DNA from: Thalassotalea fonticola | GTDB taxonomy: Bacteria; Pseudomonadota; Gammaproteobacteria; Enterobacterales; Alteromonadaceae | Assembly (NCBI RefSeq): GCF_032911225.1 | Contig: NZ_CP136600.1 | Span: 620,001 to 684,000 of the forward strand | Direction: 5' to 3' | DNA length: 64,000 nt | Shown here: positions 1,607 to 26,357 of the stretch, piece after piece | Position numbering within the stretch: position 1 is the first letter of the stretch | Layout of the letters: every line of letters starts with the position of its first letter | The notes under the pieces: model-generated | The model's input: the letters and a program-made list of their open reading frames with translations, nothing else | Told to the model about the DNA's origin: nothing | Databases searched by the model: none | Program-made: the position numbers and the translations under genes

Positions 1607-3001
1607 TTATTTAGCCGGTTTTTCGGATTTTAACGGCTTTGTTCTGATCTGGTAGGGCAAATACGGCAAAATATCGCTTTCCCATGCCCGTACTTTCTCG
1701 GTCATCTGTTTTACCACTTCAGGATGTGAACTGGCTATGTTATGTTGCTCAGCAAGATCTTTATCTAAATCATACAAACTCATTGAGCGGTAATAGGGGC
1801 TTACCAGCAGTTTCCATTTGCCTTGTCGCATTGCTTTGGCGACATCATTGGTTTGTAAGTCACTAGAATGCAGGTTCAAACCACCATTACGCCAGAATAA
1901 ATCCCGAACTGGTTGTTTGTCGCCAGAGAAAACTGGCAGTAAACTGATACCGTCCAGTTGATGCTCGGCCGGAACCACTGCCCCGGTAAGGGCGAGAATA
2001 GTTGGCATAATATCGAGTGAAATGGTTAATTGCTCAGAGACTGTATTGGCTTTAATTTTTGTCGGCCACCAGGCTATTGTTGGTACCCGATGACCGCCTT
2101 CAAATAGTGAACCTTTTTTACCACGTAGCGGCCCGGGTGATGATAGTTTCATTGGGCCATTATCCGAAGTGAAAATAATTAAGGTATTCTCGCTTAAGCC
2201 AGCAAGCTTTACTGCTTCAACTAATTTACCGACGCTGACATCGAGCTCACCTATGACTTGTTTGAATATTGGCTCTTTATCAATATCTTGCTTGCGTTTT
2301 TGTTTATCAGGGCCACGCTGAATAGGTGAATCAGGGCCTTGCATTGGATCATGTACAGCTTCATGGGCCACATAGAGCACAAATGGGTTGTTTTTATTGT
2401 CATTAATAAAATTTATCGCATGCTCAGTGATCAAATGCGTTGAATAACCTTGTTCAACCACTTGTTTCTCGTTATGCCACCAGTCGTAGCTGTGCATCCG
2501 ATCATAATGAGAGATATAGTCAATGTTGCCACTTAAAAATCCGACAAAGCGATCGAAGCCAAAATTCATCGGACGATAACGCTCTTCATAGCCCACATGC
2601 CATTTTCCAAACAATCCGGTTTTATAACCTTTCGCCTTAACTAAGCTGGGAAAGGTGATTTGAGTTTTGGGATCAACACCAAAGCTGTGGGAAGGGTGTT
2701 TTGGATCGGCATTTACTACGCCGTCGACACCGGTTTTGTGCTGATAACGCCCGGTAATTAATCCTGCTCTAGTCGGGCTACATACGGTCCCGCTTGAATG
2801 AAAATCAGTAAATCGTAAGCCTTCACGAGCTAACTGGTCCAAGTGTGGCGTATGGTGGATGCCGTTATAACTGCCTAAATCACCATAGCCCATGTCATCA
2901 GCCATGATCACAATGATGTTTGGTTGACTGGCGGGGCTTTCCAACGCCATAGATTGACCAGCTAATAATAGGCTTAAACCGATCGATAGTAAGTTTTTCA
3001 T
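1607..3001 (-). CDS. Secreted S1-family sulfatase
   Basis: A 464-residue type I sulfatase that would remove sulfate esters from a polysaccharide or its oligomers. A Sec signal peptide covers roughly residues 1-19. The N-terminal metal site is PNIIVIMADDMGYGD. The active-site motif CSPTR has its cysteine at residue 74 and must be oxidised to formylglycine for activity. A later TSDNGP motif supplies further metal ligands. The length is typical of the family. It is the downstream gene of a two-gene minus-strand operon: the upstream sulfatase stops 4 nt before this start, and the ribosome site AAAGGA overlaps that stop. The exact sulfate position and sugar cannot be read from sequence; fucose sulfate is inferred from the GH29 neighbours. 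Confidence 0.9.
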   Translation of the reverse strand: MKNLLSIGLSLLLAGQSMALESPASQPNIIVIMADDMGYGDLGSYNGIHHTPHLDQLAREGLRFTDFHSSGTVCSPTRAGLITGRYQHKTGVDGVVNADPKHPSHSFGVDPKTQITFPSLVKAKGYKTGLFGKWHVGYEERYRPMNFGFDRFVGFLSGNIDYISHYDRMHSYDWWHNEKQVVEQGYSTHLITEHAINFINDNKNNPFVLYVAHEAVHDPMQGPDSPIQRGPDKQKRKQDIDKEPIFKQVIGELDVSVGKLVEAVKLAGLSENTLIIFTSDNGPMKLSSPGPLRGKKGSLFEGGHRVPTIAWWPTKIKANTVSEQLTISLDIMPTILALTGAVVPAEHQLDGISLLPVFSGDKQPVRDLFWRNGGLNLHSSDLQTNDVAKAMRQGKWKLLVSPYYRSMSLYDLDKDLAEQHNIASSHPEVVKQMTEKVRAWESDILPYLPYQIRTKPLKSEKPAK

Positions 3002-3005
3002 CTAT

Positions 3006-4547
3006 TTATCCTTTATTGGTATGTCCAGTCATCGGGCGGCTAAAGCCCTGTTGGCGATAACGTTCGAGTAAGCGTTCAAGCTCAGCGACTTTATCCGGAT
3101 TTTGTAAATACAAATTTTGCGTTTCACTGGCATCATTGGCTAGATTATAGAGCTGACCTTTAGGTGTATCCGGGTTCTGCTTTAATAATTTTTTGCGCTG
3201 GCCTTTCGAGCCAAAACCGCCAGATGTTTGGCCCTTAATGTATTTCCACGGACCTTGTTGGATGGCAAACATGCCACCTATGGCGTGATATACGGTAGCT
3301 TCTCGAATATTTTCCATACCGGCCTTGCCGTAAAATGCGGGTAATAAATTGTAACTGTCTTCACCAGCATCACTCGGCAGTTTGCTATCAACGATACCGG
3401 CGATGGTGGCTAACAAGTCAACCAGAGATAAATTTTGGTCACTGACGCTACCGGCAGGGAAATGCTTAGGCCAACTGGCAATAAACGGCACTCGGTGTCC
3501 GCCTTCATAAATGTCGGCTTTCATACCGCGCCAATGAGCATTGGCCAGATGATTATATTGTTCAATATCGCTTGCTTTCCAATGTGAGCCATTATCACTG
3601 GTGACTATCACTAAAGTGTTGTCGCTCAGACCATTCTCTTTTAATGCACTATGTACCCGACCAATGACATCATCGGTTTGATTGACAAAATCACCATAGG
3701 TACCGGCTTCACTCTTGCCCTTAAATTCAGCTTTAGGAACCCAGGGAGTGTGTGGCGATGGCAATGGCATATACAGGAAAAAAGGCTGCTTTGTTGAACT
3801 GGCTTGCTGCTTGATATAGTTTTCAGCCTTGTTTGCTAGTGTAGGTAATACTTCAATATGTTTAAAATCGGGAGCGCTGGCACCTTCACGCCAAAAACCA
3901 TCACCACCGTATCTTGCTAATTTACCCTTTGTGACTTCACTACTGGCACTTTGTAGCACGGATTCATTTTCAATATATAGATACGGAGGCATGTCTAACG
4001 ACGCCGGGATGCCAAAGTAATAATCAAACCCTGATGATACAGGTCCTGGTCGCAGCGGCTGGCTATAATCGGTTTTTGCTTTATTACCTAGGCCAAGGTG
4101 CCATTTACCGATGCCTGCGGTGGTATAACCTTTATCTTGTAACATCGATTGAATGGTCATTCTGCCATCTTCAATCAAAGCGGGCGATTCACCATATAAC
4201 ACCCCTTTTTTTAGGCGTGAACGCCAGGCATAACGACCGGTCAATAAACCATAACGAGTTGGTGTACAAACTGCAGATGGAGTATGGGCATCGGTAAATC
4301 TGATCCCAGCTTTCGCGATGGCATCCATATTTGGAGTAGGGATTTTACTGGCGTTGTTATACGCACCAAGGTCACCGTAACCCAAATCATCAGCCAAAAT
4401 AATCACAATATTAGGTAGTTTTTGCTCAGCTTCCGCATTAACAACACTTTGTTGTTCGGTTGAACAACCTTGCATTGCGAAGGCAAAAGTAATCGCTAAA
4501 GTGATTTTTTTTAAAAGGGAAAACTGCAAGTTATCTCGTGGTTTCAT
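3006..4547 (-). CDS. S1-family sulfatase, predicted lipoprotein
   Basis: A 513-residue type I sulfatase. The N-terminus has a hydrophobic segment ending in MQGC (Cys28), a plausible lipobox, so the enzyme is probably membrane-anchored in the periplasm or on the surface. PNIVIILADDLGYGD forms the metal site. CTPTR with Cys94 is the formylglycine precursor, followed by a YGLLTGRYAWRSRLKKGVL stretch that resembles subfamily S1_15 (tentative). A close relative of the same architecture lies at 23293-24735 in this window. It is the first gene of the minus-strand sulfatase pair and is divergent from the GH29 gene at 4769. A candidate operator (4601-4624) lies 54 bp upstream of its start. Confidence 0.9.
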   Translation of the reverse strand: MKPRDNLQFSLLKKITLAITFAFAMQGCSTEQQSVVNAEAEQKLPNIVIILADDLGYGDLGAYNNASKIPTPNMDAIAKAGIRFTDAHTPSAVCTPTRYGLLTGRYAWRSRLKKGVLYGESPALIEDGRMTIQSMLQDKGYTTAGIGKWHLGLGNKAKTDYSQPLRPGPVSSGFDYYFGIPASLDMPPYLYIENESVLQSASSEVTKGKLARYGGDGFWREGASAPDFKHIEVLPTLANKAENYIKQQASSTKQPFFLYMPLPSPHTPWVPKAEFKGKSEAGTYGDFVNQTDDVIGRVHSALKENGLSDNTLVIVTSDNGSHWKASDIEQYNHLANAHWRGMKADIYEGGHRVPFIASWPKHFPAGSVSDQNLSLVDLLATIAGIVDSKLPSDAGEDSYNLLPAFYGKAGMENIREATVYHAIGGMFAIQQGPWKYIKGQTSGGFGSKGQRKKLLKQNPDTPKGQLYNLANDASETQNLYLQNPDKVAELERLLERYRQQGFSRPMTGHTNKG

Positions 4548-4768: not shown

Positions 4769-6283
4769 ATGTTACGAGCTAAATTACCAAGGAAAATATT
4801 GACTGTGAAAAAGATGATTTTGACTGCGGCGTTGTTAACTATCAGTTGTTTTCAAGCCATTGCAAGCGAAAAACCAGACAACAGTAAAGAGACAAACGGG
4901 GATACAAGCGCATCTAGCTGGCAGCGTATCGAAGCCAACTATCGACTACCAACTTGGTATGAGGATGCCAAGTTTGGTATTTTTATTCACTGGGGGCCAT
5001 ATTCAGTACCAGGCTGGGCACCGGGTAAAGCCTATTCTGAATGGTATCCGCATAATATCTATCGCGCCAATAGCAAACGCTCGTCGAAGTGGCGCCAATA
5101 CCATCAACAAACCTACGGCAGTGATTTTGGTTATAAAGATTTTATTCCGCAATTTAAGGCCGAACATTGGGATCCACAGGACTGGGCCAAATTATTTAAA
5201 CAAGCTGGTGCCCGTTATGTGATCCCGGTTGGCGAACATCACGATGGCTTTGCCATGTGGGATAGTGCTTTGACTCGTTGGGACGCAAAAGATATGGGGC
5301 CAAAGCGCGATATTATTGGCGAACTCGCCAAAGCTGTACGTTCCTCAGGAATGAAATACGCCGTGTCGTATCATCGTGAGCGTCATTTCAGTTATTTTAA
5401 TCAGGACGATGAGCGGCTTAAACGTGAGCTGGCGGCCAATCCTGACGCGGCTGAGCTTTATGGGCCGTTTGAATTGAGCAAGGAGTTCATTCGCGATTAT
5501 CAAGCACGTTGGCAAGAAATTTGTGATAAATATCAGCCTGATTTCATGTGGCTTGATGATATTCCCGCTTTTTACCAACAACCTGACCATCCTAATATAG
5601 TTGCGTACCAGCAAACTTTGCTAGAGATGGTGAGCGATTATTTAAAACAATCTCAGCATTGGCAAAAGTCAGTGTATTTTAATAATAAAGGCAAACACCG
5701 CAATTTCGATACCGATGCCGGCGTACTTTCTAAAGACAACATGACCATAGATGGCATCGGCCCTAAGTGGGAAAATCCGGCCACTTTTGGTCATTCATTT
5801 GCCTACAACTATATTGAAGATGACAATGGTAGCTATAAAGATAGTGATGAGTTAGTGGATTTATTGATCGATGTGGTCAGTAAAAATGGCAACTTATTAC
5901 TCAATATTGGGCCAAAAGCAGACGGCACTATTACCGCTCCGCAAAGGGTCGGTTTACTGGCGGTTGGACGCTGGCTCCAAATAAACGGCGAAGGCATATA
6001 TGGCAGTCGTCCATGGCAAGCCTATGGCGAGGACAACATTCGTTATACTCGCAAAGGCAACAATACGCTGTTCGCCTTTGATCTCGAAGCCCGAAACGGA
6101 AGCATATTGTTACCTTTAACCGCACAATTCAAACAATCGGATATCGCGTCAATTGAATTACTGGGTTTCGATCAGGTGCAGTGGCAGATCACCAGCGCAG
6201 GATTAGAAGTCAGCAACCCGCAACAAAAATCTGTCGAGGCGACGGTTTATAAAATTAATTTTCATCAGAATATTATCAACTAA
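4769..6283 (+). CDS. GH29 alpha-L-fucosidase (secreted)
   Basis: A 504-residue GH29 enzyme, expected to release L-fucose from non-reducing ends by a retaining mechanism. The family signature KFGIFIHWGPYSVPGW is near residues 70-85, EHHDGFAMWDS follows, and the catalytic nucleophile is the first Asp of MWLDD (Asp263). After the barrel comes a C-terminal beta-sandwich. A signal peptide MILTAALLTISCFQAIAS is visible. The ATG at 4769 has a poor ribosome site; a GTG at 4805 preceded by AAGGA is an alternative start that gives a tighter signal peptide. The gene is transcribed alone on the plus strand, divergent from the sulfatase pair. The acid/base residue cannot be assigned by eye. Confidence 0.88.
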   Translation: MLRAKLPRKILTVKKMILTAALLTISCFQAIASEKPDNSKETNGDTSASSWQRIEANYRLPTWYEDAKFGIFIHWGPYSVPGWAPGKAYSEWYPHNIYRANSKRSSKWRQYHQQTYGSDFGYKDFIPQFKAEHWDPQDWAKLFKQAGARYVIPVGEHHDGFAMWDSALTRWDAKDMGPKRDIIGELAKAVRSSGMKYAVSYHRERHFSYFNQDDERLKRELAANPDAAELYGPFELSKEFIRDYQARWQEICDKYQPDFMWLDDIPAFYQQPDHPNIVAYQQTLLEMVSDYLKQSQHWQKSVYFNNKGKHRNFDTDAGVLSKDNMTIDGIGPKWENPATFGHSFAYNYIEDDNGSYKDSDELVDLLIDVVSKNGNLLLNIGPKADGTITAPQRVGLLAVGRWLQINGEGIYGSRPWQAYGEDNIRYTRKGNNTLFAFDLEARNGSILLPLTAQFKQSDIASIELLGFDQVQWQITSAGLEVSNPQQKSVEATVYKINFHQNIIN

Positions 6284-6457: not shown

Positions 6458-8308
6458 TTATTGATAGGGCGCGATGATTAAGCGTTTAACCCAAATGGCT
6501 TGATCATGTTGAGCGACTCTTGGCGACAGGGTAATGGTTTGTAAGCCCGACTTGGTTAAATTTAATAGACCAAGTTCAACCATTTCATAGCGCATTCTTG
6601 GTTTAATTTTTTTACCTTTGCTATCTTTGCTGCCTAATAAGCTTCTCCGGTAGCCAGTATCCATAGTGACAAAGCTTAAGGTGTCGTCATTGGCCTGTAT
6701 TTGCCACTGTGAACCATCGCCAGCGAGATCGCTGGCGTATTCTATTTTAACTGTGTATTTACCCGGAGTTAAAACGTTAACTTGCCATTGTGCATTGGCA
6801 TTTTTATGCTGCCATTGACTGATGTTTTGACTATGCTTATGTTCACCAAATTTTTCCATCCAACGAATTTCTTCAATTTTAGCCGCTGTAACTGTGGCAA
6901 AATCGGCAGCTAATATCGTGGGGTAAACGCCATCAATAGCGAGTGCCTGACTGCTGACTTTTGGCGTACCATCCAGGGAAATTTCTACCACATGAATTAA
7001 GTCCTCATTGAGTTTTTTAGGGAGTGTTAATGTGAGGGTTTCATTGTCTTTTACAAATCTGACTTTAGCGCCGTCACTTAACATTTCAGCGTTTAGGACT
7101 GAGTTTTGTAAACTTGGCAAATGTAATTTGCCAAGTTTCGGTAATTCAAAGATGTGCAGGTAAAGTTTGTTGTGTTTAACTGTGATATCGCCCCAGGGAA
7201 AACCATAATAAGGCGAAGCTGTTGTCGCATAAATAGCCGCTTTATTTATCGCTAACCATTGACCGGCTATGCTCATGTTTTCTACTGCTTGCTGAGGAAT
7301 TGAACCATCACCTTTAGGGCCAATATTTAGCTTAAATAAACCGCCACGGGCGATCACTCTAATCAGGTTTTGCATCAATGTTTTCGGTGACTTCCAATGC
7401 TCGTCATACCAGGCATATGACCAGGAATCATTGGTGGTATCGATACTTTCCCACACACCGTTATGACCTTTCAGCGGGATATGCATATCTCCCATGGTTG
7501 AAAAGTCACCTAAACCGTTACCGATGCGGCTGTTAAGTAAGCAGTTGGGTTGATATTTATGAACTAAATCAACCAGAGCCTGAGAGTATTGTTTTGGCAT
7601 ATTGCCTGGCGTATCGAACCAGAATTGTGAAATGTCACCATAGTTGGTTAATAGCTCAGTCACTTGTGGAATGACCTTATTGTCGAAATAGCGTTTAAAG
7701 TCTTTTTTATGGCTGTTAATATTTGGGCCTTTATACATGGCGGCGTCAGGTTCAGTCCAATCAAAATTTTGTGAGTAATAAAAACCTAAGCGGATGCCAT
7801 ATTTTTTACAGGCTTGTGCAAGTTCTTTAAGTGGGTCGCGTTTAAATGGTGTTGCCTTGGTGATGGTAAAGTCACTCACCGCAGAATCGAACATGGCAAA
7901 ACCTTCATGATGTTTTGCGGTGATCACGATCAAGCTTATGCCACTATCTTTGGCAAGTTTGGCAAAAGTATCGGCATCAAATTTTTCCGGGTTAAAATGT
8001 TTAGCGTATGCCTTATAGTCATCGGTAGGAATTTCCGCCATATGCATCAGCCATTCACCAATACCATAGTAGGTTTTATCTTGCCATTTCCCTGCCATTT
8101 GTGAATACAACCCCCAGTGAATAAACATTGAATATTTATCGTCTATCATCCATTGCAAACGTGGGTCGTTAACATTTTTATTAGTCGCAAGCTGTCCCCA
8201 TTGTTCATCCATTTGCACCGTTTGATTAGCACTCAATACACAAGTGCTAGTGAATATGGTTAAAACCAGAAAAATTATATTAGCGCTTTGTATTATATTT
8301 TTGGGCAT
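6458..8308 (-). CDS. GH29 alpha-L-fucosidase with extra C-terminal beta domain
   Basis: A 616-residue GH29 enzyme. A Sec signal peptide ends near VLSANQ. The barrel shows SMFIHWGLYSQMAGKW and TAKHHEGFAMFDS, and the nucleophile Asp232 lies in FWFDTPGN, the hydrophobic-W-x-D-TP arrangement shared with the GH29 genes at 16111 and 20870. Beyond about residue 430 there is a linker and a further domain of roughly 130 residues with a KYTVKIEYASD pattern, likely a carbohydrate-binding-like beta-sandwich. A similar tail occurs in the 16111 protein. It is convergent with the GH29 at 4769 and divergent from the sulfatase at 8595. Substrate linkage is unknown. Confidence 0.88.
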   Translation of the reverse strand: MPKNIIQSANIIFLVLTIFTSTCVLSANQTVQMDEQWGQLATNKNVNDPRLQWMIDDKYSMFIHWGLYSQMAGKWQDKTYYGIGEWLMHMAEIPTDDYKAYAKHFNPEKFDADTFAKLAKDSGISLIVITAKHHEGFAMFDSAVSDFTITKATPFKRDPLKELAQACKKYGIRLGFYYSQNFDWTEPDAAMYKGPNINSHKKDFKRYFDNKVIPQVTELLTNYGDISQFWFDTPGNMPKQYSQALVDLVHKYQPNCLLNSRIGNGLGDFSTMGDMHIPLKGHNGVWESIDTTNDSWSYAWYDEHWKSPKTLMQNLIRVIARGGLFKLNIGPKGDGSIPQQAVENMSIAGQWLAINKAAIYATTASPYYGFPWGDITVKHNKLYLHIFELPKLGKLHLPSLQNSVLNAEMLSDGAKVRFVKDNETLTLTLPKKLNEDLIHVVEISLDGTPKVSSQALAIDGVYPTILAADFATVTAAKIEEIRWMEKFGEHKHSQNISQWQHKNANAQWQVNVLTPGKYTVKIEYASDLAGDGSQWQIQANDDTLSFVTMDTGYRRSLLGSKDSKGKKIKPRMRYEMVELGLLNLTKSGLQTITLSPRVAQHDQAIWVKRLIIAPYQ

Positions 8309-8594: not shown

Positions 8595-10136
8595 ATGAAA
8601 AAAATAGTAGCTCCATGGCAGAAGTTTTCCCGCACTTGTTTGCTTGTACTGCCTTGTCTTTTTGTGAGTGCTGTTAGTAGTGCTAGTACAGAAAATATTG
8701 CTGATACCGAACGGCCCAATATTTTATTTTTATTAACCGATGATCAAACAGTTAATACTATTAATGCATTGGGAAATAAGGCGATTAAAACGCCAAATTT
8801 AGATCGCTTAGCTCGTAATGGCACGACCTTTAGCCATGTATTTAATCAGGGCTCTTGGTCACCAGCGGTATGTGCGCCCAGTCGGGCGATGATCAATACC
8901 GGCCGCAATGTTTATCGTACCGGGTTTGGACCAAAAAAATCGGGCCGTAAAAGTTATCCGTTGTGGGGGGAAACATTCCGTAACGCCGGTTATGAAACCT
9001 TTATGAGTGGAAAGTGGCATGTCACCAAAGAGGCGTTTACCCGCAGTTTCGATTTAGCTAATGCCGTTTATGCCGGTGGTATGTCAAGAAAAGAAGATGG
9101 TGGTCAGTGGCAGCCAAAAATGTGGAATTACGATGCCACGGCAGCGAAAAAAGACAATTTTGTGGTGTATAGTAAAAAACAGCATTCGAGTGAACAAATT
9201 GCTGAAGCCGCGGTTGATTATATTAATGGTAAAGGTCGCCGCAATGAAAAACCCTTCTTGATGTATGTGGCATTTCTTGCGCCGCACGATCCTCGCCAGT
9301 CACCACAAGAGTATGTCGATATGTACCCGGGTCAAGCGGTGCCATTACCAGCCAGTTATATGGCGCAACATCATATCGACCAGGGGGATTTTACCGTTCG
9401 CGACGAACAGTTGTTACCTTTTCCTAGAGAGCCGCAAGCGGTGAAAAGCTTTATTGGTGAATATTATGCGATGATCACCCATTTAGATGAGCAAATTGGT
9501 AAAGTATTAACCGCATTAGAAGCGTCTGAATTTGCCAAAAACACCATAGTGGTAATGACCTCTGATCATGGCTTAGCGGTAGGCAAACATGGCATGCTGG
9601 GCAAACAGAACCAGTATGATCACAGTATTCGCGCACCATTTATCGTTAAAGGCGAGGGCATCGCAGCAGGTCGTGTTGCCAAAGGCATGTTTTATTTGAA
9701 CAGTGTATTTCCAACCACGGCCGAACTCGCTGGAATTGACATTCCTGAGACGGTTGATGCACCAAGTATTGTGCCGTTAATCCAGGGCAAAACCGACAAA
9801 ATGTTTGATCACATTGTTGGCAGCTACCGTCATTTTCAGCGTATGGTGCGTAACGACCGTTATAAATTGATTTATTACCCAATGATCAAGAAAACGCAAC
9901 TGTTTGATTTAGTCGATGATCCTGATGAATTGCGTAACCTTGCCGATTTACTCGAGCATCAACAAACCATTAGCGAGTTGCGCGTGGAATTGGAAACGCT
10001 GAAACAGTGGACCGGCGATCCGTTACTCGACAGCGACCCTAAAGGTAGCTATGCCAACTATTTAGGTGAAGTACGTTGTGACTGGCAAGTATCGCAAGAC
10101 GATTGTACCCAGCCTAAAAAAAGAAAGTCTCACTAA
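8595..10136 (+). CDS. S1-family sulfatase (secreted, CAPSR type)
   Basis: A 513-residue type I sulfatase. A signal peptide ends near SAVSSAST. PNILFLLTDDQ is the first metal site. The active-site motif is CAPSR with Cys93, the variant seen in iduronate-2-sulfatase-like and choline-sulfatase-like members. MTSDHGLAVGKHGMLGK supplies the late metal and substrate ligands. It therefore belongs to a different subfamily from the CTPTR/CSPTR enzymes nearby, and probably attacks a different sulfate position. It starts with an ATG after AGGT, 12 nt upstream of the next sulfatase, so the two form an operon ended by the terminator at 12152. Confidence 0.9.
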   Translation: MKKIVAPWQKFSRTCLLVLPCLFVSAVSSASTENIADTERPNILFLLTDDQTVNTINALGNKAIKTPNLDRLARNGTTFSHVFNQGSWSPAVCAPSRAMINTGRNVYRTGFGPKKSGRKSYPLWGETFRNAGYETFMSGKWHVTKEAFTRSFDLANAVYAGGMSRKEDGGQWQPKMWNYDATAAKKDNFVVYSKKQHSSEQIAEAAVDYINGKGRRNEKPFLMYVAFLAPHDPRQSPQEYVDMYPGQAVPLPASYMAQHHIDQGDFTVRDEQLLPFPREPQAVKSFIGEYYAMITHLDEQIGKVLTALEASEFAKNTIVVMTSDHGLAVGKHGMLGKQNQYDHSIRAPFIVKGEGIAAGRVAKGMFYLNSVFPTTAELAGIDIPETVDAPSIVPLIQGKTDKMFDHIVGSYRHFQRMVRNDRYKLIYYPMIKKTQLFDLVDDPDELRNLADLLEHQQTISELRVELETLKQWTGDPLLDSDPKGSYANYLGEVRCDWQVSQDDCTQPKKRKSH

Positions 10137-13827: not shown

Positions 13828-13859
13828 TGTCAACGACAAATAATAATAGGAAGCACCTA

Positions 13860-15128: not shown

Positions 15129-15968
15129 ATGAAATTAGTAAGATTTGGTGCCCCAGGCCAGGAAAAACCGGGATTAATCGATCAAGACGGCAAGTTACGT
15201 GATTTGTCGGCGCTGATCAGTGATATCGACAGCACACTTTTAGGCGGCGCTGGTCTGCAACAATTAAAAAGCCTAGATCCAGCAAGTTTACCGGTAGTTA
15301 ACGGTGAACAACGTTTTGGTAAGCCGGTTGCCACTGTCGGTAAATGTATTTGTGTCGGTTTAAACTATGCCGATCATGCGGCAGAGTCAGGCATGGAAGT
15401 GCCTTCTGAACCGGTATTGTTTGCCAAAGCAACGTCATCATTACAAGGTTCCACCGACGTGGTAATTTTGCCGCCAGGCTCAGAAAAATCAGACTGGGAA
15501 GTTGAACTTGCGGTGGTGATTGGTAAAGAAGCTAAAAACGTAAGCGAAGCCGATGCCATGGATCATGTTGCCGGTTTATCTGTGATGAACGATTTATCTG
15601 AGCGTGCCTATCAAATCGAAAGAGAAGGTCAGTGGATGAAAGGCAAAGGTTGTGACACCTTCGGTCCTATGGGTCCTTATTTAGTCACAACCGATGAATC
15701 TGGTGACGGCGATAACCGTAAAATTTGGTTAGAAGTGAACGGTAAGCGTATGCAAGATGGCAATACCAATACTATGGTTTATAAAGTGCCATTTTTGGTC
15801 AGTTACATCAGCCAGTTTATGAGCCTACAACCGGGGGATGTGATCAGTACCGGTACTCCTCCTGGTGTTGGTTTAGGCTTTAATCCGCCAATCTACCTGA
15901 AAGAAGGCGATGTAATGCGCTTGGGTATTGAGGGACTGGGTGAGCAGCAACAAGTGGTTAAGTTATAA
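15129..15968 (+). CDS. FAH-family hydrolase, candidate 2,4-diketo-3-deoxy-L-fuconate hydrolase
   Basis: A 279-residue cytoplasmic protein of the fumarylacetoacetate hydrolase family. The metal ligands appear as Glu124 and Glu126 (DWEVEL) and Asp155 (MNDLSER), followed by KGCDTFGPMGP and STGTPPGVG, the classic family blocks. Members of this subgroup split 2,4-diketo-3-deoxy-L-fuconate (or the rhamnonate equivalent) to pyruvate and lactate as the last step of the non-phosphorylating deoxy-hexose route. A second copy with the three ligands at identical residue numbers sits at 35491. The ribosome site AGGAAACCTA precedes the ATG. It is the only cytoplasmic catabolic gene in the 1-26 kb block. Confidence 0.8.
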   Translation: MKLVRFGAPGQEKPGLIDQDGKLRDLSALISDIDSTLLGGAGLQQLKSLDPASLPVVNGEQRFGKPVATVGKCICVGLNYADHAAESGMEVPSEPVLFAKATSSLQGSTDVVILPPGSEKSDWEVELAVVIGKEAKNVSEADAMDHVAGLSVMNDLSERAYQIEREGQWMKGKGCDTFGPMGPYLVTTDESGDGDNRKIWLEVNGKRMQDGNTNTMVYKVPFLVSYISQFMSLQPGDVISTGTPPGVGLGFNPPIYLKEGDVMRLGIEGLGEQQQVVKL

Positions 15969-16070: not shown

Positions 16071-16110
16071 ACCATTGATACTGCAATTTTATAAATATAA
16101 AGACTTGCCT

Positions 16111-18075
16111 ATGAAAAATATAATAAAAAACACCATATTTTCTACGATGATAGTGCTGGTGCTACAAAGCTGTAGCAGCGACCAAAACAAGCCGCGTTTA
16201 CAGCAAGTTGCGTTTACGCAACCGGTTGAACGTGACCATTGGATACCTACAGATCAGGAAACCGAAAAGGAGCGCAATGAGCGTATGGCCTGGTGGCGCG
16301 AGGCAAAATTCGGCTTGTTTATCCATTGGGGCGTCTATTCGGTACCTGGTGGTGAATATCAGGGCAAACCTGCCTCGGCCGAGTGGATTATGTTGCGCTC
16401 GCAAATCCCTGTAGACGATTATAAAGACTATGCAAAAGACTTTAACCCGGTAGATTATGACCCTGAAAAATGGGTGTTGGCGGCGAAAGATGCCGGGATG
16501 AAATACATCGTCATTACCGCAAAGCACCATGATGGTTTTGCCTTATATGATTCAAAGGTAACCGATTGGGATGTGGTGGATGCATCAGAGTATGGCAAAG
16601 ATTTACTCCGGCCATTGGCCGAAGCGGCGCGTAAGCATGGGATGAAGCTCGGTTTTTATTATTCTCAGGCACAAGATTGGGTCCATCCGGGCGGTGCCAA
16701 GCATAAGAACGTGCAATGGGATGCACAACAAGCCGGTTCGTATGATCAATATATTGAGCAGGTAGCCGCGCCGCAGGTGAAGGAGATTTTATCAGAGTAT
16801 GGCGATATCGCCATTTTGTGGTGGGATACTCCGGTTGGCGTCCGGGCATCGCATGTAGAACAATTTAACCTGGGGTTAGCGTTGCAGCCAGGGATTATTA
16901 CCAACAATCGTCTCGGTGGCGGCGCATTGGGAGATACCATTACCCCCGAGCAATTCATCCCGGCATTGGGTATTCCAGGATTTGACTGGGAAACCTGCAT
17001 GACGATGAACAATTCCTGGGGCTATCGTACTAACGACGATAACTGGAAATCGGCAGAAGAGCTGATTAGAAAACTTGGCGATATTGTCAGCAAAGGCGGT
17101 AACTTTTTACTCAATGTTGGCCCTACTCCAAGTGGTGAAATACCAGCAACATCAATGCAATTACTTAGCCAAATCGGTGACTGGATGACGGTTAATGGCG
17201 AAGCGATTTATGCGACAGAGCAAAGCGTGTTCAGTTTCCTTGACTGGGGCCGAGTAACTCAACGTACCCTGGAAAATGGTAATACCCGCTTATATTTGCA
17301 TGTCTGGCACTGGCCGGAAAACGGTCGGTTATCCTTGCCATTGAAAAATAAGGTAGTAGACAGTTTTTTACTTGCTGAGCAAAAAGCTATTGCGACTGTT
17401 GATAACAAGCAAACGAAAGAATTTGTGTTACCAACACAGGCACCTGATGACATCAGTACTATTATTGTTGTCGACATCGAAGGTGCGCCTCAGCTTAGCG
17501 AAAACCGCTTTAATAAAGCGCAATTGGATGGCCAATTTATTTTCGATACTAATCGGGCGATGTTACATAATCATTTGGGTAGTCATATGGTGGTTGATGA
17601 AACGGGAGCTGAGGCTAAAATTATCGATTGGAGAGCAAAACCAGGACGCAGAGCCGAAGGTTGGATCGAATGGGAGTTTGAAGTAGCGCAAGCCGGACAA
17701 TATACACTGTCAAGCCGCATCAGCGCTGCCAGTAAAGCCAGCAAATCGATGCAAGCCGTGATTGAGTATCTGGGAGAAGATAGTGATTCGTTAAAAGTGG
17801 TTTATAACAAGCGTGGCAAAATTATCAAGCCGGTTGGGCAAAGCTTAACGGTAATTATAAACAGCGACGAAGAACAAGCACATTCGCTATTACTTGGTAA
17901 ATTATCTATCGGTAAACCCGGTGTCTATCGCCTTGGCCTGTTGCCACTAGAGCAACAAGAAAAGACCTCAACCAGTACTGATGGTATGGGGCTGGTGAAT
18001 GATGGCACCGGCTGGGTCGGTCCTGATGTGCATCAGGTAAGTCTAACTCCTGTGCCGCTTAAGAACAGACCCTAG
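16111..18075 (+). CDS. GH29 alpha-L-fucosidase lipoprotein with C-terminal beta domain
   Basis: A GH29 enzyme of about 654 residues. The ATG at 16111 is chosen over an upstream TTG at 16075 because it starts directly at the signal, MKNIIKNTIFSTMIVLVLQSC, which ends in a lipobox. The barrel has KFGLFIHWGVYSVPGGEY and TAKHHDGFALYDS, and the nucleophile Asp239 is in LWWDTPVG. After about residue 450 a linker leads to a C-terminal domain of about 150 residues (RAEGWIEWEFEVAQAGQYTL), similar in pattern to the tail of the 6458-8308 protein and probably carbohydrate-binding. It begins a plus-strand cluster with the beta-helix gene and another GH29. An 82-bp gap follows. Confidence 0.88.
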   Translation: MKNIIKNTIFSTMIVLVLQSCSSDQNKPRLQQVAFTQPVERDHWIPTDQETEKERNERMAWWREAKFGLFIHWGVYSVPGGEYQGKPASAEWIMLRSQIPVDDYKDYAKDFNPVDYDPEKWVLAAKDAGMKYIVITAKHHDGFALYDSKVTDWDVVDASEYGKDLLRPLAEAARKHGMKLGFYYSQAQDWVHPGGAKHKNVQWDAQQAGSYDQYIEQVAAPQVKEILSEYGDIAILWWDTPVGVRASHVEQFNLGLALQPGIITNNRLGGGALGDTITPEQFIPALGIPGFDWETCMTMNNSWGYRTNDDNWKSAEELIRKLGDIVSKGGNFLLNVGPTPSGEIPATSMQLLSQIGDWMTVNGEAIYATEQSVFSFLDWGRVTQRTLENGNTRLYLHVWHWPENGRLSLPLKNKVVDSFLLAEQKAIATVDNKQTKEFVLPTQAPDDISTIIVVDIEGAPQLSENRFNKAQLDGQFIFDTNRAMLHNHLGSHMVVDETGAEAKIIDWRAKPGRRAEGWIEWEFEVAQAGQYTLSSRISAASKASKSMQAVIEYLGEDSDSLKVVYNKRGKIIKPVGQSLTVIINSDEEQAHSLLLGKLSIGKPGVYRLGLLPLEQQEKTSTSTDGMGLVNDGTGWVGPDVHQVSLTPVPLKNRP

Positions 18076-18157: not shown

Positions 18158-20869
18158 ATGTATCGTGCATGCATGATCACCATAATGACCATAGGTCTTG
18201 GCTTGTTGCCATTGCCAGGCAAAGCTACGCAAACAGTACAACAAGTAGAAGCTGATGCCATCTATGTGTCACCGCAGGGTAAAGCCAAGAATAGCGGCAG
18301 TAAAAGTAGCCCTGTGGCTACCATGGCACAAGCCTTTAAACTTGCTAAAGCCGGACAAACAATTTATCTAAGGGCGGGTCGCTATCACGGCACAGAAGCC
18401 TTGCGTAATTTGAAAGGGGAGGCGGGTAAACCGATCACCGTCAGTGCTTACCCGGGTGAGCAAGTCATTTTTGATGGCAGTCAAGACGTACAGCAACTGG
18501 CGGCAGGGGAAAGCTTGGTCAATATTCAAGCGGGCGGCACTGGCTGGTTACCGCACAAGGGTCATATCTATAAGATGCAATTGCAGCAAGATATTTGGCA
18601 ACTATTTGTCTTTGACAAAAACGGAGTTGAGCAAATGGTTCCGGCGCGTTGGCCGAATGCCAAATTTAGCGATGGCAGTATCTATCTACGCTCTGCCTGG
18701 GCCACGGCTAAAAATGCGCTGAATAAAGACGGTCGTTACAGTTATAACCCGGTGATGAATAAAATCAAAACCGGAGTAAAGGCCAAGGACATCGTCGACA
18801 ACTGTTTCGATTCGGAAATGGATTTAACCAATTTAGCTGAGCTGCAAAAGCTTGATGCTAAGATGTGTTTTGGTGTTTCCATTGATGCACCACCTGAGCA
18901 TAAGCGTCAATTAAGCAAAGCCGATCAGGAATTATTAAAGAAAAGACCGTGGAAGAGCATCAATAATAATGCCGATAATTATGGTCATGATTTGGCGGCA
19001 CAAACGTTTGATGCAACCGGCGCCATGGCAATTTTAAATTATGGTCATTGGCGTACCTGGGCACGTCCGGTAGTCAGTCATGATGGCGATAGTTTTAGCC
19101 ATATTGCTACCCCGCATTTATACGGTACCGGGCATTATTATTATTTAGAAGCGGCATTATCTTTACTCGATCAAGAAGAAGAGTGGTTTTATGATAAAAA
19201 TACCCACACTTTATATTTATGGGCACCAAATAGTATTGCGTTAAATAAACAAACATTAGCTGTACGGGCAAAAGTGCAAGCCAATGCCTTTACCATCAAA
19301 AATGCCGATTATGTGACGTTTAAAGATTTGAACTTTTTTGCGACCACCTTTACCTGTCTACGTTGCGATCAGATGATCTTTGACCAGTTAAACCTGCAGT
19401 ACGCTGGCTCTTCTCGGCGGATGTTAAAACAGTGGGGACAGGTTTCGACCCACAAAAGCGGCCGTAAATTGTTAATTGACGCAACGCCTGATATTGTCAT
19501 CATTGACGGCAAATATAACAGCAATAGTAATAACAGTAGCGGCAGTGTGATCCGTAACTCCAGTTTCATTGACAGTGACGGCCCGGCATTACAATTTCAT
19601 GGTAATGATAATCAGATCATCAACAACCGTTTTACCAATATTGACTACACTGGCGCCGAAGGCTGGCCATTTCAGGCGGCGATCAATACCTTTAAGGGTA
19701 AAAATAATACTTTTAGTTACAATACCTTTTACAATACCGGGCTGTCACAAATGTACCGCGCCCATTCTGGCGATATCACCCATAACTATGTCGATAACAT
19801 TGGCTGGGCACAAACTGATGGCGCAGCAATTGGCGCCAATAATACCGGCTTGGCCGTCGCCTATAATTGGGCATTTTCCGATCATGACAAGGGCATTCGC
19901 ATCGATGCCGCGTATCCACCCACGCATGTCAGCCAATGGCACACCGATAACTACATTCATCACAATGTCACTATGAATAACCGTGGTATTGTCGCCAAAG
20001 GCTGGCGCCATCGGATTTATAATAATACCATTATTGATAAAGGCTATCGCGACCCGGTGAGTGGTGTTGTTGATGTCGAACCACCACGGCTGGTGCTCAA
20101 CAATGATACGGCTCTGGTACAACGCTTTAACGTGACTGAACAGCAAATGGGTTGTAAGGTAGGCATAGATTGTGGCGCCAATTTAGGCACCATTAGTGCC
20201 AACAACTTAGCGCCGTATATTCTTGCAGGCTTGGGCAAAAGGGTGGATCGCAAAACCCAGCTGCTGGCCGAACAACATCATGATCATGAAACCAGTATTG
20301 TTGGCGGTGTCAGCGTCAGTGAATTATTACGTGATCCACAAAATTATGATTTTCGCGCCAAAGATAATTCGCCAATTAGCAACAAGGGCGTTGCGCTGAA
20401 CACCTTTAGTAAAACTGAGCTGTACAATGATTATCAGGGGTTACCGGATAACGTTGATTATATTGGCGCTTATGCGACAAACGATAAGCACTATTCCATT
20501 CCCGGACAGCGTCAAGCCTTAGCCTCGTTTCCTATCCCTTTACATGGCAGTAATAACGCAAAAATTGATAGCGACTTAATCTGGCGTGAAGCGTTGTCAG
20601 CGAATGAATATCGACTGTATTTTGCTAACAGCCAGCAGCAGCTGAGCAAGATGGCAAAACCAACGGCCAGTTATGAGGCCGATGTTGAAACTTATCCTGG
20701 TATTCGCGCAGCTAATAATATTTATACACCAGAGAAGTTATCCTCAGGTAACACCTATTTCTGGCGTGTCGACGTTGTGGTAGGGGAACAGGTGCATAAA
20801 GGCAAGATATGGCAATTTACGGTAGAACAAAACATTCAAACTACAAATAATAAAGAGCAAGGCTTATAA
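18158..20869 (+). CDS. Right-handed beta-helix glycosidase, GH141-like
   Basis: A 903-residue secreted protein with a signal peptide ending near GKATQT. YVSPQGKAKNSGSKSSPVAT, then AGQTIYLRAGRYHG, is the characteristic opening of right-handed beta-helix enzymes. Repeated N-x-x-x-N and I-x-N-N rungs (NSSGSVIRNSSFIDSDG, IINNRFTNIDY) run through the middle. The last 100 residues (TYFWRVDVVVGEQVHKGKIW) look like a fibronectin-III-like domain. The length and layout fit GH141, a family with characterised alpha-L-fucosidase and xylanase members and common in fucoidan-degrading bacteria. I cannot name catalytic residues. The ribosome site AGGAAA is well spaced. It is flanked by two GH29 genes on the same strand and abuts the next start without a gap. 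Confidence 0.75.
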   Translation: MYRACMITIMTIGLGLLPLPGKATQTVQQVEADAIYVSPQGKAKNSGSKSSPVATMAQAFKLAKAGQTIYLRAGRYHGTEALRNLKGEAGKPITVSAYPGEQVIFDGSQDVQQLAAGESLVNIQAGGTGWLPHKGHIYKMQLQQDIWQLFVFDKNGVEQMVPARWPNAKFSDGSIYLRSAWATAKNALNKDGRYSYNPVMNKIKTGVKAKDIVDNCFDSEMDLTNLAELQKLDAKMCFGVSIDAPPEHKRQLSKADQELLKKRPWKSINNNADNYGHDLAAQTFDATGAMAILNYGHWRTWARPVVSHDGDSFSHIATPHLYGTGHYYYLEAALSLLDQEEEWFYDKNTHTLYLWAPNSIALNKQTLAVRAKVQANAFTIKNADYVTFKDLNFFATTFTCLRCDQMIFDQLNLQYAGSSRRMLKQWGQVSTHKSGRKLLIDATPDIVIIDGKYNSNSNNSSGSVIRNSSFIDSDGPALQFHGNDNQIINNRFTNIDYTGAEGWPFQAAINTFKGKNNTFSYNTFYNTGLSQMYRAHSGDITHNYVDNIGWAQTDGAAIGANNTGLAVAYNWAFSDHDKGIRIDAAYPPTHVSQWHTDNYIHHNVTMNNRGIVAKGWRHRIYNNTIIDKGYRDPVSGVVDVEPPRLVLNNDTALVQRFNVTEQQMGCKVGIDCGANLGTISANNLAPYILAGLGKRVDRKTQLLAEQHHDHETSIVGGVSVSELLRDPQNYDFRAKDNSPISNKGVALNTFSKTELYNDYQGLPDNVDYIGAYATNDKHYSIPGQRQALASFPIPLHGSNNAKIDSDLIWREALSANEYRLYFANSQQQLSKMAKPTASYEADVETYPGIRAANNIYTPEKLSSGNTYFWRVDVVVGEQVHKGKIWQFTVEQNIQTTNNKEQGL

Positions 20870-22378
20870 ATGATGATTAAAAAACGAAAAAGCAAATGCG
20901 CCAACGCATTAGCCATTAGTACCGCGGTGTTATTGGCACTATCAACCCCAGCTATCAATGCGGCTGAGCAAGTCAGTGGTTCAGGAATTCCCGGCTCTGC
21001 AGAAATGCTTGAGTTAGGCTTAAAGTGGCAAACGATGAGTAACTCCGCGGCAAAACAACGAGGTAGAGAGTTATTTAATCAAAATAAATACGGCATGTTC
21101 ATTCATTGGGGGCTTTATTCTACCTTAGGTGGAATATACCAAGGTGAAAAGATGGAAGAGGGTGGCACCGGACCCCGAGTTGCGGAATGGGTGATGCGAA
21201 GAAAAGAAATCCCTCGTGCTGAATATGCCAAATTGGCCGATAATTTTAACCCTACCAAGTTCGATGCCGATGAGTGGGTCGCTATTGCGAAAGCGGCAGG
21301 GATGAAATACATGGTGATTACCTCCAAACACCATGATGGTTTTGCCCTGTTTGATTCTAAAGTGACGGATTTTGATGTGATCGATGCCACACCCTTTGGT
21401 CGTGACATCATTCGTGAGCTTGAAGTCGCGTGTAAGAAAGCAGGGCTTTCCTTTGGCGTTTATTATTCTAATGCCCTTGATTGGCGAGATGGTGGCGATT
21501 CCGGCATGAAAGATTATGGGCCAGAAAAACCCAAACAAGCGCAGTTTGTCAATCGATTTGATCCCGCGCCAGTGTCTTTTGATAGCTATATCGCCAATAA
21601 GTCATTACCGCAAGTACGAGAGCTGGTGACTAATTACGACTTATCACAAGTTTGGATGGATACGCCGATTTATATTCCAGCAAAGTACAGTTTTGAATTT
21701 TATAAAACCTTGTATGATGCTAACCCTGAAATTTTGGTCAATCAACGTATTGGTAATGGCTTTGGCGATATTGGTACTCCGGGCGACAATGTTATTCCTG
21801 ACAAGGCCAGTGAAAATACTTGGGAGGGGATTGCCACAACGAACAATTCATGGGGTTATAAATCTTACGACAATGATTGGAAATCACCGATAGAAACCTT
21901 GTACTGGTTGATTGCCAATGTCAGTAAAGGCGGTAACTTCTTATTAAATGTGGGGCCAGATGGGAGCGGTAGTATTCCGGCAAAATCTGTTGATAACTTG
22001 CTTGCGGTAGGAAAATGGTTAAAAGTAAATGGTGAAGCCCTATATGATACTAGACCATGGCATGTTGATCATGAAGGACCAACAAATTTACAAATGAAGG
22101 GTACTAATCATCGCAACAAGCATAAATTTAGTTTTGAATTTACCGGCAATGATTTTTGGTTTACCAAAAAAGCAGGCAATGTTTATGCCATTGCTTTGTC
22201 ACGCTCAGCCGATAATAAAGCGATACTTAAATCTCTTAAAGGTCAAACAGTGAAAAACGTGGTATTACTTGGCTCAGCAGAACCGTTAAAATGGTCTAAT
22301 ACAGCAAACGGCCTAACGGTTGAATTACCTGAGTTTAGTCATGATGGTATCGGCTATGCGTTGCGAATTAGTCTTTAG
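20870..22378 (+). CDS. GH29 alpha-L-fucosidase (secreted)
   Basis: A 502-residue GH29 enzyme whose ATG follows the upstream stop codon directly, which suggests translational coupling to the beta-helix gene. A second ATG is adjacent and may also be used. A signal peptide ends near PAINAAEQ. KYGMFIHWGLYSTLGGIYQG and TSKHHDGFALFDS are the family blocks, and the nucleophile Asp264 is in VWMDTPIY. A short C-terminal beta-sandwich (NVVLLGSAEPLKWSNTANG) completes the normal GH29 length, with no extra domain. It is the last gene of the 16.1-22.4 kb cluster, followed by a bidirectional terminator. Confidence 0.88.
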   Translation: MMIKKRKSKCANALAISTAVLLALSTPAINAAEQVSGSGIPGSAEMLELGLKWQTMSNSAAKQRGRELFNQNKYGMFIHWGLYSTLGGIYQGEKMEEGGTGPRVAEWVMRRKEIPRAEYAKLADNFNPTKFDADEWVAIAKAAGMKYMVITSKHHDGFALFDSKVTDFDVIDATPFGRDIIRELEVACKKAGLSFGVYYSNALDWRDGGDSGMKDYGPEKPKQAQFVNRFDPAPVSFDSYIANKSLPQVRELVTNYDLSQVWMDTPIYIPAKYSFEFYKTLYDANPEILVNQRIGNGFGDIGTPGDNVIPDKASENTWEGIATTNNSWGYKSYDNDWKSPIETLYWLIANVSKGGNFLLNVGPDGSGSIPAKSVDNLLAVGKWLKVNGEALYDTRPWHVDHEGPTNLQMKGTNHRNKHKFSFEFTGNDFWFTKKAGNVYAIALSRSADNKAILKSLKGQTVKNVVLLGSAEPLKWSNTANGLTVELPEFSHDGIGYALRISL

Positions 22379-22499: not shown

Positions 22500-23279
22500 C
22501 TAATGAGGTAAATGCTGCTTGATGGCGTCACTCACTTTCGTTGCTAAAAACTTAGAGCCTTGTTTGTTAAAATGTACATTCAACGGTCGTTGATATTCAC
22601 TCAAATTTGGTTTTATAGCCGTATACAAATCATTAATGGCAACATTATGTTTAGTCATTATGTTCATTGCCGCCTGATTATATTTTTGTGCGTCTTCTGG
22701 AATGCGAGAAGGGGTAACTCCTGCAGGGTAAGGTGTGGTTGTCGCAAAAATTATTACGGCACCCGTTTGTTTAAGACGCTTGACTATAGCATTTAAATTT
22801 TTTGCATATTGTTCAATACTCAGGGCTGAAGGCTGGCTAGGATCATTGCTTTTTATTCCCTTTCCATTGGTAATACGTTTTAAATCGTGCAAACCCCAAT
22901 TAAAATGAATAACATCCCACTTTTTAACATTTTGACTGCTCAGCCAATGCTCAAGCTGTCTAAGCCCTTTTGCAGTGTCACCAGCATTATCTGGTAATTT
23001 TCCTTGCGCTTTAATTGGTCGATAAACATTGGCTTTGTCTTTCAGTAGCTCTCTGACATCTAAGGTGTAGCCAATGGAGATGCTATCGCCAATGAGCAAT
23101 ACATTGGGTAATTGCGGTTGTGGTACAGCGGCCCATTTAAACTTTGCTGCCTGCTCTTCAAAAGATCCAGGCTCTACTGCGGCATGAGCTAGACTAGTCG
23201 CTGAAAATATAGTGGCTGCGAAGAAGATCATCACCGCGATTACTAACAATTTCTTATACATAAAATTTTCTCTGTTCAT
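22500..23279 (-). CDS. SGNH/GDSL hydrolase-like protein, possible carbohydrate esterase
   Basis: A 259-residue secreted protein with a signal peptide ending at AHAAVE. LLIGDSISIGY contains the block I serine (Ser66), HFNWGLHDL is block III (Asn127), and LNVHFNKQGSKFLA carries the block V histidine (His236). The aspartate normally found two or three residues before that histidine is absent (Leu233, Asn234), which may lower activity or change the triad. In this setting the likely role is removal of acetyl groups from the algal polysaccharide, but this is inferred. A second in-frame ATG seven codons in, behind AGAGAA, is an alternative start. It lies 13 nt downstream of the sulfatase in a minus-strand operon. 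Confidence 0.75.
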   Translation of the reverse strand: MNRENFMYKKLLVIAVMIFFAATIFSATSLAHAAVEPGSFEEQAAKFKWAAVPQPQLPNVLLIGDSISIGYTLDVRELLKDKANVYRPIKAQGKLPDNAGDTAKGLRQLEHWLSSQNVKKWDVIHFNWGLHDLKRITNGKGIKSNDPSQPSALSIEQYAKNLNAIVKRLKQTGAVIIFATTTPYPAGVTPSRIPEDAQKYNQAAMNIMTKHNVAINDLYTAIKPNLSEYQRPLNVHFNKQGSKFLATKVSDAIKQHLPH

Positions 23280-24770: not shown

Positions 24771-24795
24771 CCACTTGTTGGTTATCAACAAGTGG
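24771..24795 (-). terminator. Terminator of the 24825-26357 GH29 gene
   Basis: A perfect 10-bp stem CCACTTGTTG/CAACAAGTGG with a 5-nt loop. Read on the minus strand it is followed by TTTTCTGTTT. It sits between the GH29 stop at 24825 and the downstream sulfatase start at 24735, so that sulfatase likely has its own promoter or depends on read-through. Confidence 0.75.
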
Positions 24796-24824
24796 TTTAT
24801 CAAAGTGATAAACACAGCTTAAGC

Positions 24825-26357
24825 TTATTGCACCGCTGAAAATTTAACCGTTTGCAAATAAAGGCTAGGAATCTCGGAAGGACGCAAGTTAGGCATAATC
24901 ACTTCAACCCCTTTGCTGGTTTGACTGAAGGACAATTGGCCATTTACACCGAGCATAGTCACTTTGCTGCTTTTGCTTAGTTGCAGATCTTTAATCAATA
25001 ACTTACCCGACTCAGGCCAGCGTGGCAAAATGGCATACACATTATTGGCTTTTTTAGTAAAGTATGCCTGTTTCACTGCGTAGCCTGGCTTTGGTGCTGT
25101 AGTCATTTCTTTGATCGGGTTACCGTAGTGGTAATCTTTCTTGGTGTAGCTATCACGCTTGCCTTCGCTCCACTGCGCATCTTTGATCCAGTCTTTAGTA
25201 CCATATATTGCTTCACCATTAACTGTTAGCCAATCACCCATTTCCAATAAACGTGCTTCCATGATAGGTGGAATCCGACCATCGCCGGTAGGGCCAATAT
25301 CGAGAAGGAAATTACCACCGCGGCTGACAATGTCCACCAGGTTAAAAATTAAATCTTCAGTGCTGGCATATTGGTCGATTGATTCATGACGATTATAGCC
25401 AAATGAATGACCAATGCCGCGAGTTTCTTCCCAGGCATGATCACCGTTTGGAAAACCGGTACCGTATTCGGTGGTGTAATAACCGCCGTGCTTGCCACGC
25501 ACTTTACCCCAACGGTCGTTGATCACCAATTGGTCGCCACGTGGGTTTTCATTTAAGATCCATGGCAGAATTTCTAACGGACGCCAGACATCTTCACCTA
25601 AAAACCAGTCGCCATCGGTGTAAAGTACATTCGGCTTGTAGGTGCTTATGAGTTCTTTAATTTGTGGGAAATACACTTCATCAATATATTTGTCTTTATT
25701 CTCCAGCCATTTCGGATTGAACCAGTCCCAGATTGAATAGTACAAGCCCATTTTTACATTGGCTTTTTTATTTACCGCCTCGGTGAGCTCACCAACAAGA
25801 TCACGCTTAGGGCCAATTTCTACCGAATTCCATGGGCGGCCAAAAGACTCGCTGGCATGTTTGTTTGGCCATAATGTGTAGCCTTCATGATGTTTTGACG
25901 TTAATACCACATATCTTGCGCCGGCGCGGTCGAAAATATCGGCCCAATGATCGGCGTCAAACAACTCTGCAGTAAACTGCTCGGCAAATTCTTCATACTT
26001 AGAGTCTTCGCCATAAACTTTGCTTTGATAGGCTTTTACGTCTTTTTGTACAGCAAGCGCTTTTTTATGAGCTGGTGAACCCGGTCTCATCGGTTGGCCA
26101 TCAAAGCGAACATTTTTGTTGCCATCTTTGTGGTGCCAATACCATTCAGCATACTGTCCGTGTGGTGAATAAGCGGGTACTGAATACAGCCCCCAATGGA
26201 TAAAAATCCCAAACCGAGCATCGCGCCACCACTGTGGTGTTTCACGACTGTCAATGGATTGCCAGTTCGGCTGATATTCTTGCGGTGCCCCTAAACTTGC
26301 TGTACTCAATGAAAGCATCGAGGTAAGCCCTAAAGAAAGTAACATTTTAATTTTCAT
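24825..26357 (-). CDS. GH29 alpha-L-fucosidase (secreted)
   Basis: A GH29 enzyme of about 510 residues. The open frame reaches a GTG at 26372, but the ATG at 26357 is preferred because the GTG lies at the edge of a 44-bp palindrome and GGATT is suitably placed before the ATG. The signal peptide ends near STASLGAP. RFGIFIHWGLYSVPAYSP and TSKHHEGYTLW are the family blocks, and the nucleophile is Asp248 (from this start) in LYTDGDWF. That motif and the YAEWYWHH loop resemble the classical broad-specificity subgroup (GH29-A) more than its paralogues here do, which is inference. It lies upstream of the sulfatase/SGNH pair on the same strand. Confidence 0.88.
   Translation of the reverse strand: MKIKMLLSLGLTSMLSLSTASLGAPQEYQPNWQSIDSRETPQWWRDARFGIFIHWGLYSVPAYSPHGQYAEWYWHHKDGNKNVRFDGQPMRPGSPAHKKALAVQKDVKAYQSKVYGEDSKYEEFAEQFTAELFDADHWADIFDRAGARYVVLTSKHHEGYTLWPNKHASESFGRPWNSVEIGPKRDLVGELTEAVNKKANVKMGLYYSIWDWFNPKWLENKDKYIDEVYFPQIKELISTYKPNVLYTDGDWFLGEDVWRPLEILPWILNENPRGDQLVINDRWGKVRGKHGGYYTTEYGTGFPNGDHAWEETRGIGHSFGYNRHESIDQYASTEDLIFNLVDIVSRGGNFLLDIGPTGDGRIPPIMEARLLEMGDWLTVNGEAIYGTKDWIKDAQWSEGKRDSYTKKDYHYGNPIKEMTTAPKPGYAVKQAYFTKKANNVYAILPRWPESGKLLIKDLQLSKSSKVTMLGVNGQLSFSQTSKGVEVIMPNLRPSEIPSLYLQTVKFSAVQ

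Follow-up and report, generated by a model that had tools for sequence, protein, structure and literature searches.

A gene-dense locus in Thalassotalea fonticola as a probable system for the degradation of sulfated fucans

The best-described fucan degraders are flavobacteria and Verrucomicrobiota. A stretch of 64,000 nucleotides from Thalassotalea fonticola, referred to below as the window (positions 620001-684000 of NZ_CP136600.1, the single contig of a 4,900,776-base genome that is 99.99% complete), carries six S1 sulfatases and six GH29 alpha-L-fucosidases at 1607-26372. The question raised by this cluster is which glycan it acts on, whether it can open the polymer chain by itself and how its sulfatases are matured. 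The reading retained here, with a probability of about 0.8, is that this Colwellia-like gammaproteobacterium uses the locus to degrade fucoidan-type sulfated fucans. Such fucans are degraded slowly, a property relevant to marine carbon storage (PMC12786026). Coordinates are those of the window unless the contig is named.

Content, extent and conservation of the locus

The first-pass annotation had recognized six Cys-type S1 sulfatases and six GH29 genes, and this inventory was confirmed: PF00884 lies above its curated Pfam cut-off in all six of the former and PF01120 in all six of the latter, the twelve reading frames being open throughout. The beta-helix and SGNH proteins that it listed (18158-20869 and 22500-23279) are likewise present according to Pfam, and an FAA hydrolase that it had not mentioned lies inside the cluster, whose right end is set by the longest frame. 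The extent of 25 kb proved too small. The block continues to the left of the window and begins at about 588 kb of the contig, with an altronate-dehydratase-type protein, an aldo-keto reductase, an amidohydrolase, a short-chain dehydrogenase/reductase (SDR, recognized by eye), the L-fucose permease FucP (contig 592204-593592, 551.7 bits for a cut-off of 280.4), a TonB receptor, a beta-helix protein of 1547 aa and a further sulfatase. These genes are alike in kind to the non-phosphorylative fucose cluster of Campylobacter (PMC12566272).

The genome as a whole is rich in sulfatases. PF00884 displays 81 matches, which make up 79 places when two pairs of matches, each within a single frame, are counted once. 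One of these places is a short piece interrupted by stops and some others are incomplete; the family also includes non-sulfatase proteins (PMC5066984). The Cys motif was found in at least 34 proteins of 400-850 aa in the genome stretches examined. All 14 GH29 genes lie in two loci, six in the present one and eight at 2.35-2.48 Mb. When the 79 PF00884 places and 14 GH29 genes were placed uniformly 2000 times and counted in 25-kb intervals, at least six sulfatases fell together in 2 of the 2000 placements, and neither six GH29 nor six of both were obtained in any (0/2000 each). Uniform placement is a lenient null because glycan genes cluster anyway, and two other sulfatase-rich intervals of this size occur elsewhere in the genome, the observed maximum being 8 per 25 kb.

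The block is also conserved. In Colwellia piezophila ATCC BAA-637, 14 of the 15 genes of 1607-26372 are in place and in the same order, with 62-93% identity, within a block at about 450-608 kb of contig NZ_KB905160.1. The gene lacking a direct counterpart encodes the GH29 fucosidase at 4769-6283 (plus strand, Pfam), a different GH29 being located nearby. Most of the genes left of the window are kept in the same order as well, the counterpart of the further sulfatase matching over 168 aa only. The C. piezophila block gives way at 522-608 kb to homologues of part of the second T. fonticola locus (2.30-2.51 Mb, 28 PF00884 places, 8 GH29). Homologues of both loci adjoin in C. piezophila, whereas about 1.7 Mb separates the two loci in T. 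fonticola; the GH29 matches number 15 in the former (one with internal stops) versus 14 in the latter. Any GH29 at all is present in 8 of the 15 genomes of the genus, this one included, with counts from 0 to 14, and the trait is therefore patchy.

Substrate and mode of attack

A fucoidan-type substrate had been proposed from the gene content, and it is now well supported by the genes for L-fucose uptake and for catabolism of its type in the same block. Further support comes from the nearest solved relatives of the sulfatases and from the presence, within the two fucan loci, of six related beta-helix proteins, among them that of the window.

The sulfatases were compared by sequence with solved structures, a nearest relative not being equivalent to a SulfAtlas subfamily assignment. 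Two are S1_15-like, both CTPTR enzymes on the minus strand: 3006-4547, with a lipobox-like N-terminus (by eye), matches 6s20 at 277.7 bits and the S1_15B structure 9bau at 269.4 bits, and 23293-24774 matches the S1_15A structure 9bas at 233.3 bits. A third, 1607-3001 (CSPTR, minus strand, 74% identical to its C. piezophila counterpart), is S1_16/S1_19-like, being nearest to 7stt and then to the carrageenan 4S sulfatases 6prm and 9fo1 (S1_16). The remaining three are unplaced and on the plus strand: 8595-10136 (CAPSR, best match 5g2v at 147 bits), 10149-12071 (CSPTR, 640 aa with a C-terminal extension and, by eye, a lipobox-like N-terminus; recognized by motif and Pfam) and 12358-13827 (CTPTR). 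The motif C-x-[PA]-[ST]-R is thus found in all six, as CSPTR twice, CTPTR three times and CAPSR once. Its cysteine needs conversion to formylglycine by the formylglycine-generating enzyme (FGE) or the anaerobic sulfatase-maturating enzyme (anSME) (PMC8379841). The variety of motifs had been taken as a mark of different sulfate positions; this was rejected, as the motif directs formylglycine formation (PMC5066984), and the low pairwise identity among the six (22-41%) is a better sign of different roles.

Other active-site positions vary too. GKWH is found in five of the six sulfatases and GKWQ in 12358-13827, where the active-site histidine is replaced by glutamine; DNG is found in five and DHG in 8595-10136. 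GKWQ occurs in 118 of the best 120 relatives of 12358-13827 (2088 found; the protein itself and one paralogue, at contig 2390519 of this genome, are included) and appears to mark a widespread sulfatase clade without the active-site histidine. Fucoidan 3-O-sulfatases of S1_25 also lack this histidine, replaced there by Gly (PMC6315715). The KFG mark of S1_25 is not present in 12358-13827, which carries GKWQ at that place, and GKFG is found in sulfatase 2458162 of the second locus.

The five other GH29 genes are 6458-8308 (minus strand, C-terminal extension, 82% identity to C. piezophila), 13815-15086 (plus, 83%; a twin-arginine-type N-terminus, TAT_signal scoring 21.9 bits, just below the cut-off of 22.7), 16075-18075 (plus, lipobox-like N-terminus by eye, nearest solved structure 9rzy at 294 bits), 20870-22378 (plus, 82%) and 24825-26372 (minus, 93% over 485 aa). 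The candidate nucleophile Asp was matched in three of the six by a simple pattern, whose silence on the other three does not amount to absence. The FAA hydrolase (15129-15968, plus strand, 90% identical to its C. piezophila counterpart) is likely of the 2,4-diketo-3-deoxy-L-fuconate hydrolase type. A second one, at 35491, is preceded by an SDR and an MR/MLE-type sugar-acid dehydratase (33470-36339, plus strand), three genes that could serve further deoxysugar-acid catabolism and are putative members of the block at most. The best model of both FAA hydrolases is the 2,4-didehydro-3-deoxy-L-rhamnonate hydrolase, which would fit a 6-deoxy sugar acid. For the dehydratase at 34263 the closest match is 2pod (583 bits), an entry that carries a superfamily name only, so that an identity as L-fuconate dehydratase does not follow.

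The pathway suggested by these genes can be briefly summarized as follows. The GH141-like helices (18158-20869 and the 1547-aa relative left of the window) would cut the chain into oligosaccharides, which the TonB receptor would bring into the periplasm. The six divergent S1 sulfatases, assigned by family, would take off sulfates from different positions before the GH29 enzymes release the exposed fucose units, and the SGNH/GDSL esterase (22500-23279, minus strand) may act as a deacetylase. L-fucose would enter by FucP, a permease according to its family cut-off, and could be oxidized by the fuconolactonase-like, sugar-acid dehydratase, SDR and FAA-hydrolase proteins, for which the similarities are weaker. 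The non-phosphorylating route of L-fucose oxidation ends in lactate and pyruvate.

The first step of this pathway depends on the beta-helix protein at 18158-20869 (plus strand), and the earlier view of an exo-acting system, in which no endo-enzyme had been recognized, is made doubtful by it. Its best fold match is the parallel beta-helix of the GH141 protein BT_1002. A candidate catalytic pair is formed by D554, Asp in 35 of 35 aligned rows, and D583, Asp in 30 of 35; both align with Asp in 9rx2, whose entry does not name GH141, and their correspondence to the catalytic pair D523/D564 of BT_1002 is only putative. In December 2025, endo-fucanase activity was reported for members of GH141 (PMC12786026). 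The protein is a candidate endo-fucanase; it does hold a DG and an RxD, and with the signature of the GH141*6 branch missing, its role stays at the level of a candidate. The GH141_M cut-off is reached (27.7) by another helix protein, of 783 aa, in the second locus. PF22842, which the protein database assigns to the helix of the window and to many relatives, gave no match in the genome with the model used. A scan of genome contigs with the beta-helix protein returned five seed-matching stretches and no confirmed relative, a negative that means little because the exact-word seeds missed the 70% identical relative in C. piezophila.

It is possible, if rather doubtful, that the locus is exo-acting only: the GH29 and S1 enzymes would finish oligosaccharides released by endo-fucanases located elsewhere in the genome or in neighbouring organisms, and the helix would be an exo-fucosidase like BT_1002. 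The fold match to that very enzyme, the missing endo signature HQxWxxxD and the much larger second locus speak for it. In the work of Rubtsov et al., however, all four GH141 members assayed were endo-fucanases without fucosidase activity, and one of them, Wf141_3, stands outside GH141*6 (PMC12786026); moreover, the C. piezophila block carries two GH141-like helices beside its exo-type enzymes. Among the large unassigned proteins of both loci, Pfam identified GH3, GH10, GH18, GH43, GH88, CE2, CBM and beta-helix domains; it gave no family for a 1247-aa protein at contig 602936-606679 or for most of a 1373-aa protein at contig 616982-621103. GH107 and GH168 were not named in these scans, which covered the second locus in part, and no family-level search was made for GH107, GH168, GH174 or GH187. 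An alginate-lyase search (PL7) matched no control genome and is uninformative.

Another fucose-bearing sulfated glycan, such as an animal sulfated fucan, fucosylated chondroitin sulfate, a diatom fucan or a mucin-type glycan, is an unlikely substrate. The sulfatase at 3006-4547 has a GalNAc-6-O-sulfatase as its nearest solved relative and genes alone cannot separate brown-algal fucans from those of echinoderms or diatoms, but all fourteen GH29 genes and six GH141-like helices lie in two loci, one of which includes an L-fucose permease. Mucin is only made less likely by this, sialidases and hexosaminidases not having been searched.

A number of observations weigh against the degradation of fucoidan-type fucans by this locus. 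The sulfatases at 8595, 10149 and 12358 have no close solved relative (144-150 bits), and the nearest solved relatives of others (1607 and 3006) act on carrageenan or GalNAc. The helix protein of the window scores 19.7 bits with GH141_M, below the Pfam cut-off of 27, and lacks both GH141*6 signatures, HQxWxxxD and DG-x-NxxxxN. No GH95 was found in the genome by a search that matched one of 14 control genomes (Bacteroides). On the catabolic side, the best NCBIfam model of the amidohydrolase is the L-fucono-1,5-lactonase, at 210 bits for a cut-off of 400; the FAA hydrolases at 15129 and 35491 reach 410 and 406 bits for a cut-off of 500 (409.7 for the former with NF053535, a rhamnonate-type hydrolase); and the C. 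piezophila protein at the place of FucP has its closest relative (82%) in 2366266, a protein of the second locus. Finally, FGE (PF03781) was not found in the genome, where three candidates were scored, by a search that matched 4 of 14 control genomes, and anSME (TIGR03942) gave a single weak match of 63 bits for a cut-off of 349.

Maturation of the sulfatases

The TIGR03942 search found a match in 12 of the 14 control genomes, two of them over the cut-off. The single weak match in T. fonticola, at contig 2990455, was rejected as an anSME, being NirJ (626 bits for a cut-off of 515). The genome displays 13 radical-SAM matches, ten of which were identified as NirJ, MoaA, MiaB, BioB, HemN, LipA, HemW, RlmN, AmmeMemoRadiSam and EpmB, none being anSME; the remaining three were unscanned. 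The stretches of the genome that were checked contain no N. An overlooked FGE or anSME gene may still exist.

FGE needs a C-x4-C cysteine pair. A PF03781 protein is present in all seven relatives tested (12 matches), and these proteins were not accepted as maturases: the pair is found in none of the nine that were recognized, the other three being unjudged. In three of the relatives (L058, L060 and L061), FGE-domain proteins without the Cys pair adjoin a sulfatase/phosphatase-type protein and a multihaem cytochrome (by eye). A third formylglycine-forming system is suspected in E. coli but has reportedly not been identified (PMC8379841). A relic or silent locus with unmaturable sulfatases would agree with the undetected FGE and anSME but is highly improbable, as the twelve frames are intact, 14 of the 15 genes keep their order and similarity in C. 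piezophila, and E. coli, which has two putative anSMEs, produced an active Ser-type S1 enzyme without added FGE or anSME (PMC8379841).

Neighbouring genes, related systems and significance

Several features surround the block. On its left, 3-1103 (minus strand) is the 5' end of the gene for a cadherin-domain protein of 1373 aa (contig 616982-621103), whose membership of the block is uncertain. On its right, 26630-28198 holds the remnant of an FAD/iron-sulfur dehydrogenase, probably a pseudogene, with an in-frame stop between two pieces and no N-terminal part found. At 28640-33241, a TonB receptor stands beside an OmpR-type response regulator and a histidine kinase, without a match in the C. 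piezophila stretch compared. On the opposite strand, 37833-47599 encodes UxaC, UxuA, an IlvD/Edd-type dehydratase, an SMP-30 lactonase, an SDR, an aldehyde dehydrogenase and an RraA-like protein, a set predicted to serve uronate or pentonate catabolism. Perhaps another small glycan locus lies at 57094-64000, which encodes one GH2 and one GH3 protein plus a third protein truncated at the end of the window; PF00884 is matched shortly past that end, at contig 684690.

Wenyingzhuangia fucanilytica is a flavobacterium. The cluster of its strain CZ1127T comprises the GH141 endo-fucanases Wf141_1-4 and the sulfatases SWF1 (S1_17) and SWF4 (S1_25) (PMC12786026, PMC6315715). Both systems combine GH141-type helices with S1 sulfatases and include one sulfatase type without the active-site histidine; unlike the helix of the window, three of the four W. 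fucanilytica helices belong to the GH141*6 branch. The fucose-polysaccharide loci of Verrucomicrobiota also bring GH29, GH141 and S1 sulfatases close together, the latter being of S1_15, S1_16, S1_17 and S1_25 (PMC8857213). In these organisms fucose is degraded via microcompartments, L-fuculose-1-phosphate and lactaldehyde (PMC8857213), whereas the present genes point to a non-phosphorylating route. A fucoidan-active gammaproteobacterial S1 sulfatase is PsFucS1 (S1_13), from a Pseudoalteromonas of the sea cucumber gut (PMC8484680); its structure, 7aj0, is the nearest solved relative of none of the six window sulfatases. A study of deep-sea isopods lists alginate genes for its Colwellia genomes, its fucoidan genes being those of Pontiella and Flavicella (PMC11387067). 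Among the papers listed on Colwellia with fucoidan, fucosidase or sulfatase, and on C. piezophila with polysaccharide, the locus was found in no title or abstract beginning; subscription papers were mostly outside this coverage, and novelty is unproven.

The interest of the locus rests mainly on a large block conserved in Colwellia relatives, on a GH141-like lineage and on a maturation gap. It adds a conserved fucan system in Colwellia relatives to a known kind of system, and offers a candidate endo-fucanase outside the characterized GH141*6 branch together with a sulfatase-rich genome in which FGE and anSME were undetected. We advance only tentatively, and regard as improbable in its entirety, the combined proposal that this genome matures its Cys-type S1 sulfatases by neither FGE nor anSME, that the GKWQ enzymes form a clade without the active-site histidine and that the rare GH141-like lineage is an endo-fucanase. 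If it were true, a third maturation system would be well worth seeking in a bacterium that lives on sulfated fucans.

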